The notes under the pieces were generated by a model. That model did not search any database and had not been told where the DNA came from. It was given only the letters and a program-made list of their open reading frames with translations. The translations under genes were made by a program, and so were the position numbers. DNA of 64,000 nt, from NCBI GenBank assembly GCA_017163975.1, contig JAFFSR010000251.1, forward strand, positions 1,302,001 through 1,366,000. Direction: 5' to 3'. This DNA is from Anastatus disparis (taxonomy: Eukaryota; Arthropoda; Insecta; Hymenoptera; Eupelmidae). Of this stretch, positions 46,184 to 54,863 are shown in pieces; the first letter of the stretch is position 1; the number at the start of each line of letters is the position of its first letter.

Positions 46184-48119
46184 TTAATATAATTCATCGC
46201 TCTCAATATTTTCAATAATACATAGCAAATTTTCATCCTCTCCAGTAGCTTTATTATATGATAGTTTTTCATTTTCATATCGACACCTTGCAATTTTATT
46301 GACGATAAGAGCTCCAATGACAAAAGTAAGCATGAATACTAATATGGCAAAAAGTACTATAGTAATGATTTCGACTATATACCAGACGCTCTCCATATTT
46401 ATATCATCGAAATCGTTTGAGTCTGTTTCCGTTGTCACGGGAGAGCTAATGTCAAAATGATGATTTTAAATCGATGATTTATGCTTGTGACAATTTAATG
46501 CATTTCAAATAAAAATCATTTGAAATGGTAATTTTCAATAGATATAAAAATTGTTTTAAATTATACATAAGATTTAAAATAGAAGTAAATTGATATTACA
46601 ATGTATAAAAATATATTTTATATATAAACGAAATTTTCAACTGTCTAGACAGTACAAAACAAACTCTCAATGTCAAACGCAAATTCGAAAATTCATCGAT
46701 AATCAATAGGCAATTCCGAAAGCCAATCATAATACTCACTCTGTCGCTGTCATAATTTTCTTTTGTTCCTCTGCCAATTCAAACGGCTCGTCCAAAGATC
46801 TGAAAAGATCCTTGCCAAGTTCATTGAATGTTGTTTTGCCCAACCAATTAGCGAGATCGCTATGTCCGAGCTGTCTGAGTCGACGTTCGAGTACTTCGTG
46901 CGTTTTGCCGCGACCCTCGGAATAAGCAGCGTTCCAATGGAGTAATTGACGAAGACATGGAATATCTTTATTTACTCTGCGCTCTTTCTTAAATAAGATT
47001 TAATATTCAAATATAAGTGATACACGGGAATTTAAAGAAGATGGTATTAATGGAAGTAACTAAAGTTTTCTCAGAAGCGTGTTTGTTAAAAAACTTTTTT
47101 ACCAGATTTTTTCTTAATAGATTTTTTTAATTAACACATAGTTACGACAATATATTCCTCTATTTGTTACTTTAATATAGACATTTTATTATTTATTAAA
47201 ATAATTTTTTATTTTATACATTGTGATTTATATTGTACGGGATTATAGTATGATTAAATATTCTTTTCTATAATAAGAAAATATTTAAAAACTTTTTTTT
47301 AATTCTAAATTCAATGACTAAAACAGTTTTTTTTATTTTTATTCATTTAACGTTGCAGTATTTATGCTATCATTGCGATGCTAATTAGCGGCGGAGATTG
47401 TCAGTGCAATATGAACAAAGCATGTGTAACGTACAGAGGTGCTTATATCATTCGGCCGAGAACGAGATTCGAACTCGAGATTTCGAGATTATGAAGCTTT
47501 ACTGAGTGAGCCACTGACGACTTCAATGTGAATAATATTTCTAAAATAAGAAGTATGATTTTGCAAATTTCTCGAATAAAATATAAAAAGTTTGAAAAAA
47601 CATAAAATTTATATTATAATTAATTAAGCAGATTTTTTGTAGATTTTATTGAATTTTTACTGAAAAAATATTTTTATATGTTTATTTTTACTTATTGCTG
47701 TCTTTACATAATGTTATTATATTATTGGTTCATACCTGTTGATAATATTAATTAAATAAATATGTATATTTGAAAAATTTATGTAAATTCTGTCAAATTA
47801 TGATTGCTATCCTTAAACTATTACATATGCGAGGTGTTTCTAAAATTCTTACATAAACATCATCATGAAGAAATAATTGTAACTATTATTGCAATAACGA
47901 AAGCCTAAAAAATTCCAAAGTACCTGCATCATCCAAATTTTTCGGTAATTCATAACTGTCATAATGAAGCGCAGCAATGAGTCTACGACACTGAAAAAGC
48001 TCAAGTCTAGCAGCAACGTATTCTAATTCCGAAAGGTTTACGTCTATTGTGGCGCCAATCATATTTCTTCCACTTTCGCAAATTGACGTCAACAGGAGAA
48101 CTATCGTATAATAAATCAT
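46184..48119 (-). CDS. gene A: signal peptide - death domain - transmembrane protein, 230 aa
   Basis: Minus-strand exons 48119-47924, 46974-46740 and 46445-46184 join in frame to 230 residues. Residues 1-17 are a hydrophobic signal (MIYYTIVLLLTSICESG). Residues about 30-113 match the death-domain pattern: ELEYVAARL (helix 1), CRRLIAAL, the CLRQLLHW tryptophan motif and LERRLRQLGHSDLANWL for the last helices. A linker rich in Asp/Ser/Thr leads to a single transmembrane helix at about 167-192, then a 38-residue cytoplasmic tail. The predicted topology puts the death domain outside the cytoplasm, unlike Fas-, p75- or UNC5-type receptors. Donors are GCAG/GTACTT and ACAGA/GTGAGT. Other in-frame starts at 48143 and 48254 would extend the N-terminus; an acceptor-like GATTGCAG just upstream of 48133 favours the ATG at 48119. 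It lies 320 bp downstream of gene C on the same strand. The orthologue is not recognised. Confidence 0.72.
47345..47526 (-). repeat. tRNA-derived SINE (Met-like head)
   Basis: Read on the minus strand, an A-box-like TGGCTCACTCAGTA (47513-47500) and a B box GAGTTCGAATCTC (47476-47464) have tRNA spacing, with a CTTCATAATC anticodon-loop-like segment between them (CAT, Met type). The acceptor stem does not close, so it is not a functional tRNA gene; the head is followed by a GC-richer body to about 47345. It lies in intron 1 of gene A. Confidence 0.55.
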
Positions 48120-48441
48120 TCCTCGTGTATAAACTGCAATCATCAAATGCTTAGTTGGCCAATTGAGTATTGAGGTTAAGTTGTGCGTTAGTTTTATATT
48201 ATATACTTTAAAAAAATAAAAGAGCCAATGAAAAACATCTGAATATACACTCATATCTAAAAGTGTTCTTCAAAAATGTATACAAGGTAAAATCATTGAA
48301 TTTTCAAAGTATATAAGTTTATTTAAGAAATAATTTATTTTCTTATTAAAATATATAGTTAATACATACGAAAGATCTACAAAGCAAATATTAATCTAAA
48401 ATTTTTCTAAACCTAATTCCGTTAACTTAATCCTTAATCAT

Positions 48442-54700: not shown

Positions 54701-54863
54701 CGACGGTACTCGGCATACCGAAGAATACGTGTACGGTGCGACTGTGGCATCAAGAGGATATGGGCCAAGATATGCGGATGTTGGAATCTGTGATGATGAT
54801 GAATCGCAGAAAAAGTTGACGTGGAAAATAAAAAGAAAATTAGGATTAAAAAATAAGAAATAA
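51703..54863 (+). CDS. gene B: signal - DD-like segment - basic - TM - basic tail, about 444 aa
   Basis: Exons 51703-51753, 51823-52000, 52336-52597, 53252-53488, 53999-54427 and 54686-54863. Residues 1-17 are a signal peptide (MKILSSLFMFIVFLREF) ending at a GTAAGT donor. Exon 2 resembles the death domain of gene A (DCLRLLQ..., SCLRQLKYW against CLRQLLHW). Residues about 90-160 are Lys/Arg-rich (RHRRRRNHSKQKVRH). One transmembrane helix lies at about 204-226 (VLVAVLLCLLGVLASG). A long basic/polar cytoplasmic part follows with KKKKRKFKFKKKKNKR and a CCQC motif. The GTGCTG donor of exon 2 is weak; without it exon 2 runs to TGA at 52078-52080. The last junction is uncertain: AG at 54640 would need a one-base frame shift near 54660, whereas donor 54427/54428 with AG at 54685 keeps the frame. 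Function unknown. Confidence 0.6.
51823..52080 (+). CDS. gene B alternative: secreted death-domain-like short form
   Basis: If the weak donor at 52001 is ignored, exon 2 reads on through PGAVALVVIFLRNF and ends at TGA 52078-52080, giving about 102 residues with the signal exon. The read-through part lines up with the last two helices of gene A's death domain (HEVLERRLRQLGHSDL), which supports its being coding. A secreted short form and a membrane form could both be made. Confidence 0.4.
   Translation, partial: ELEINAISLIEESRESHMSRKFNSIDCLRLLQANDKAPLDIKRKTSCLRQLKYWRDKLPGAVALVVIFLRNFSATDTFQTKENRD

Follow-up and report, generated by a model that had tools for sequence, protein, structure and literature searches.

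A conserved insect membrane protein family with a predicted extracellular or luminal Death domain, represented in a three-gene cluster of Anastatus disparis

Introduction

Death domains build cytosolic signalling complexes, and all those of which we know are cytosolic. A cluster of three genes, here called A, B and C, in a 64-kb stretch of Anastatus disparis DNA (the window) raises the question of whether such a domain may also be displayed by a membrane protein on the opposite side of the membrane, and whether the three genes are related to each other. A first-pass annotation had described them as a local family of membrane proteins created by duplication, with death-domain folds in two of the three and possibly a partner role in intracellular Toll and IMD signalling. 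The analysis presented here points elsewhere. Gene A appears more interesting than was then proposed, on account of its apparent extracellular or luminal Death domain, and genes B and C would be putative separate, lineage-specific membrane proteins.

Gene models of the cluster

Open reading frames (ORFs) in the 9-kb stretch exceed those of first-order simulations in length; the longest frame reached at least 144 residues in only 3 of 200 simulations and the third-longest at least 107 residues in 1 of 200. Upon spliced reconstruction, every intron of the three genes is bounded by GT-AG and the phases are consistent, as the first-pass annotation had reported.

Gene A (48143..46184, minus strand, three exons, 241 residues) encodes, in order, a predicted signal peptide, a Death domain, a linker, one transmembrane (TM) helix and a short tail. 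Exon 1 (47924..48143), defined by splicing, alignment with relatives and an ORF profile match of 64.4 bits, covers the signal peptide, which ends in IGA, and the first half of the domain with Cys52. The second half, with Cys83 and the motif CLRQLLHWN, lies in exon 2 (46740..46983; ORF profile match of 99.3 bits), whose join to exon 1 is backed by relatives that read A-ERKV over the junction. Exon 3 (46184..46445), placed by splicing and hydropathy, holds the acidic linker, the TM helix (best 19-residue window starting at residue 184, mean hydropathy 3.08), a tail of 39 residues and the stop codon. All three proteins had been called polybasic, which does not apply to A, an acidic protein with 25 Lys and Arg versus 39 Asp and Glu in its 241 residues.

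Gene B (51703-54863, plus strand, six exons, 455 residues, of which 107 are Lys or Arg) has a hydrophobic N-terminus and one TM helix. The N-terminus, in which no clear signal-peptidase site is seen by eye, comes from exon 1 (51703..51753, with a GTAAGT donor), and exon 2 (51823..52000) encodes a half-domain that resembles the first part of the domain in A and contains two Cys and the sequence CLRQLKYW; its match is weak and above controls. Splicing defines exon 3 (52336..52597), a polybasic segment N-terminal to the membrane; the TM helix itself lies in exon 4 (53252..53488, mean hydropathy 2.96), a further polybasic region C-terminal to it in exon 5 (53999..54414, a 144-residue ORF), and the basic C-terminus with the stop codon in exon 6 (54640..54863, from splicing).

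In its simplest model, gene C (50522..48442, minus strand, four exons, 238 residues) starts without a hydrophobic N-terminus. Splicing gives exon 1 (50268..50522), exon 2 with a polybasic segment (49804..49903, the start of which may be 49910) and exon 4 with the polybasic C-terminus and the stop codon (48442..48655); exon 3 (49526..49673, mean hydropathy 2.90) encodes the TM helix with a Cys-rich edge, followed by basic residues. A candidate alternative first exon (51232..51136, minus strand, GTAAGT donor) joins to 50443, replacing the start at 50522 and shortening exon 1 to 50443..50268; the resulting protein of 244 residues gains a hydrophobic N-terminus. The TM helix is thus present in all three genes, and the N-terminal hydrophobic segment that had been ascribed to all three is found in A and B, and in C only with this alternative exon. 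Both B and C have polybasic segments, and the membrane edges of C are clearly Cys-rich, whereas the Cys clusters of B stand at a greater distance from its TM helix. If the alternative exon is used, B and C are divergently arranged, with about 470 bases (51233-51702) separating their start codons, and could share a promoter region.

Gene A belongs to a conserved insect family

With gene A as the query, 33 proteins were found at E<=1e-3 in the protein database, and a profile of 28 sequences, scored against the best 7998 word-sharing candidates, found 80 at E<=10, which together make 81 different relatives. The relatives with a named source are 52 from Hymenoptera (sawflies, parasitoid wasps, ants, bees and a social wasp) and one from a moth, Manduca sexta; the orthologues that the first-pass annotation had expected in other Hymenoptera are therefore there. 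At least 6 of the 81 carry the source name "Death domain-containing". In a tree of 35 domain rows, which broadly tracks insect groups, the A protein of the window groups with Phymastichus, Nasonia and Copidosoma (support 96/88), and Manduca and one further row fall outside Hymenoptera. Trichogramma, also a chalcidoid, lies outside this group, and the next fork is weakly supported (88/65). Judged by its relatives and its place in the tree, gene A is a real, conserved and inherited gene.

It seems to belong to a little-studied family. Titles and abstract openings returned by literature searches held nothing on it, and no mention of six locus names of relatives was found in the literature. Two records from Odontomachus brunneus, P0030 and P0031, have a common second half with extra residues read ahead of it, and probably represent a single gene whose models are split or retain an intron.

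The Death-domain assignment

One relative, P0027, matches the Pfam Death family (PF00531) with 24.4 bits, above the curated gathering cut-off of 22.6, over model positions 3-83 of 86; it is the sole relative to exceed the cut-off. At E<=0.1 the family is matched by 9 of the 47 aligned relatives, and 4 of 17 domain-only sequences match it as well, the best with an E-value of 5.4e-6. When scanned alone, neither the A protein of the window nor the Manduca relative matches Pfam Death, and a sequence search of the PDB found no Death domain, so the assignment is made through family membership. On these grounds the A family seems to have a Death domain, with a presumed six-helix fold.

That the domain is instead a helical bundle which merely resembles a Death domain, so that A would be an outward-facing membrane protein of a different fold, appears unlikely. 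The single relative above the cut-off and the lack of a PDB match by sequence speak for it, but it has to account for the matches in 9 of 47 members, one of them covering nearly the whole length of the model, and for the fact that, at E<=0.1, any other Pfam family draws matches from at most 3 of the 47. NCBIfam gave sub-threshold matches only.

Orientation in the membrane

The first stretch of conserved sequence in the family is a start motif, [TS]ID[VILM]N, present in 64 of 82 proteins (63 relatives and the A protein of the window). The residue before it is small in all 64 (G in 30, S in 13, C in 11 and A in 10) and 49 of them have V or I at position -3, whereas A, G, S and C make up 20% of positions -15 to -4 in the same proteins. 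A small residue at -1 with such a pattern at -3 is the rule for signal-peptidase sites. With a site of this type directly at the first conserved motif, the mature protein would start with the domain. Among the same 64 proteins, a TM helix is detected in 29, many annotated records stopping ahead of it; the 20 residues preceding the helix carry a net negative charge in all 29, and the 20 following it a net positive one in 27. An acidic flank before the helix and a basic one after it is the pattern of a type I membrane protein.

Two Cys columns of the domain are kept in all 47 aligned relatives, and 46 of these have no third Cys in the domain. According to a helix reading, the two stand just past the H1-H2 and H3-H4 loops, which, as a passage of PMC7156525 describes, jointly make up a single face of type III contacts between Death domains; this proximity makes a bond between them plausible, and in A we infer that Cys52 and Cys83 are probably joined. 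Taken together, the position after a signal-peptidase-type site and ahead of a TM helix with type I charges, and the two Cys, suggest that the Death domain of A should face the lumen or the cell exterior, probably disulfide-bonded. Taken by themselves, the cysteines are no proof that the domain lies outside, since the cytosolic Death domain of p75NTR can make an inter-chain disulfide, as stated in a section of PMC3589453. A sequon for N-glycosylation accompanies the invariant WN of one loop in 43 of the 54 sequences that extend this far. It lends weak support, because the Asn is kept also in sequences without the sequon, and the A protein of the window itself has none.

Alternatively, the N-terminal hydrophobic stretch could be a signal anchor or remain unused, leaving a cytosolic Death domain on a tail-anchor-like TM helix, as in an intracellular adaptor. 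Such an arrangement would agree with the cytosolic location of the Death domains that we know, and one Leptopilina isoform, P0021, indeed has no signal-like start. We consider it quite improbable, as the small residue at -1 in 64 of 64 proteins, the acidic and basic flanks of the TM helix, and the two invariant Cys with none further in 46 of 47 relatives all stand against it. Other short starts occur: P0027 begins within the domain, hence without a signal-like start, and several records, for example P0012, P0046 and P0057, have only 7-8 residues ahead of the start motif.

A proposed role for the outward domain

We regard gene A, at a probability of roughly 60%, as the chalcidoid representative of an old family of insect membrane proteins of type I, in which a Death domain follows a cleaved signal peptide and lies in the ER lumen or outside the cell, probably with one disulfide. 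What can be read directly in the sequences is the family itself, its conservation, the signal-peptide-like N-termini, the charge pattern around the TM helix and the cysteines; the actual fold, the disulfide bond, display at the cell surface and the role of the protein are inferred.

The share of the majority residue is 0.80 in the domain, and 0.37 in the signal, 0.51 in the linker, 0.57 in the TM helix and 0.32 in the tail. The length of the tail ranges across the family from 7 to 95 residues, or from 7 to 62 once P0075, whose ectodomain is altered, is set aside. With the domain best conserved and the tail variable, the outward domain is the presumed working part. As the only folded domain of A, it may bind proteins, assembling with further copies of itself or with another extracellular partner through Death-domain-type surfaces, with the TM helix as its tether; the tail, given its variable length and poor conservation, would not signal by itself. 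That an old family, spanning at least Hymenoptera and Lepidoptera, binds partners outside the cell by means of a Death domain that is disulfide-bonded and often N-glycosylated, and thereby brings Death-domain assembly outside the cell, is put forward tentatively, at slightly less than even odds. The split between the two orders dates back hundreds of millions of years. If the domain is outward, disulfide-bonded and conserved as predicted, a cytosolic assembly module has been moved to the extracellular side and long kept there. The family also provides a small and testable protein, with a putative role, that occurs in parasitoid wasps as well as in bees and ants.

Comparison with known Death-domain proteins

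The members of the A family match PF00531 in sequence, one of them beyond the curated cut-off, and differ from the usual representatives in that a signal peptide precedes the domain, a TM helix follows it, and two Cys are invariant. Fas and p75NTR, of the TNF receptor group, and UNC5 carry the Death domain in the cytosol, C-terminal to the TM helix. Like these receptors, A is a single-pass membrane protein with one Death domain, but its domain precedes the helix and, from the signal-like N-terminus and the charges, is predicted to lie on the opposite side. Unlike Fas, the TNF receptors and p75NTR, it has no Cys-rich ligand-binding ectodomain, its ectodomain consisting of the Death domain, with its two Cys (46 of 47), and the linker. 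Imd, Fadd, Tube, Pelle and MyD88 are insect cytosolic adaptors without a signal peptide or TM helix. With them, A has in common a small Death domain in insects, and it differs from these Toll and IMD adaptors in its signal-like N-terminus and TM helix. Since the signal peptide and the TM helix place the Death domain of A on the non-cytosolic side, the proposal of a partner in intracellular Toll or IMD signalling conflicts with its predicted topology.

The wording "extracellular death domain" is applied to DR5 in a passage of PMC8198123, which we take as loose wording, and the phrase also occurs in PMC8555908; six variant phrasings were not found in the literature.

Relationship of genes B and C to gene A

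Among the 2006 ORFs of the window, exon 2 of gene B is the best match to the profile of A's domain outside gene A (8.8 bits, E 0.22), a score reached in none of 30 simulated windows (best 8.1). At the protein level, residues 18-80 score 10.4 bits, residues 1-80 9.7 and the whole protein 4.0, and the best of the 4836 scores reported from 5000 shuffled controls was 9.7 bits. Pairwise hhalign of A and B gave an E-value of 7.7e-4 at a probability of 25%, aligning both Cys and the Trp of A's domain with gene B. The CLRQL..W motif common to both proteins exists, with 8 of 20 residues identical (E 0.025 in a single comparison); in A it sits within the family with the Death signal, in B within the half-length match. 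The second half of A's domain was not found in B, so that of the two death-domain folds originally proposed, the one in A stands on its family signal and the one in B is not supported. No relatives of B were found at E<=1 among 7094 word-sharing candidates, a set in which shared polybasic words may have displaced better candidates. A vestige of the domain of A may survive in gene B.

Gene C shows no likeness to B better than chance in BLASTP (best E 5.6), no match to the profile of A and no match in Pfam or NCBIfam. An origin of the three genes as a local family by tandem duplication, suggested by their adjacency, the rank of B exon 2 among the ORFs and simulated windows, and the hhalign E-value, low though its probability is, is mostly unsupported: the match in B is a half-domain of 8.8 bits, the intron positions of A and B differ, and C shows no likeness to B in BLASTP and does not match A's profile. 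We hold it to be very unlikely, with B at most carrying a remnant. Of recent duplication there is no sign, the DNA repeats within the cluster being short AT-rich matches.

Other features of the window

A search for viral relatives gave 125 pattern matches and two loci in viral contigs, both antisense to ORFs that resemble phage lysis genes and taken as chance. No RNA families were found in the 64-kb window, and ARAGORN, run with the bacterial code, called no tRNA in it; a segment of intron 1 of gene A, at about 47440-47530 on the minus strand, looks tRNA-derived by eye. Adjoining the cluster, an intronless ORF of 450 residues (42068-43420, plus strand) encodes leucine-rich repeats, and its best PDB match is the LRR and death domain containing protein 1 (E 1.1e-59), the best stretch of which lies within the leucine-rich-repeat part. 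Elsewhere, the window holds a globin exon (62212-62547, minus strand; Pfam Globin E 1.1e-14) and the first part of a basic helix-loop-helix protein (25428-25730, plus strand; Pfam HLH 21.2 bits, cut-off 20.7).
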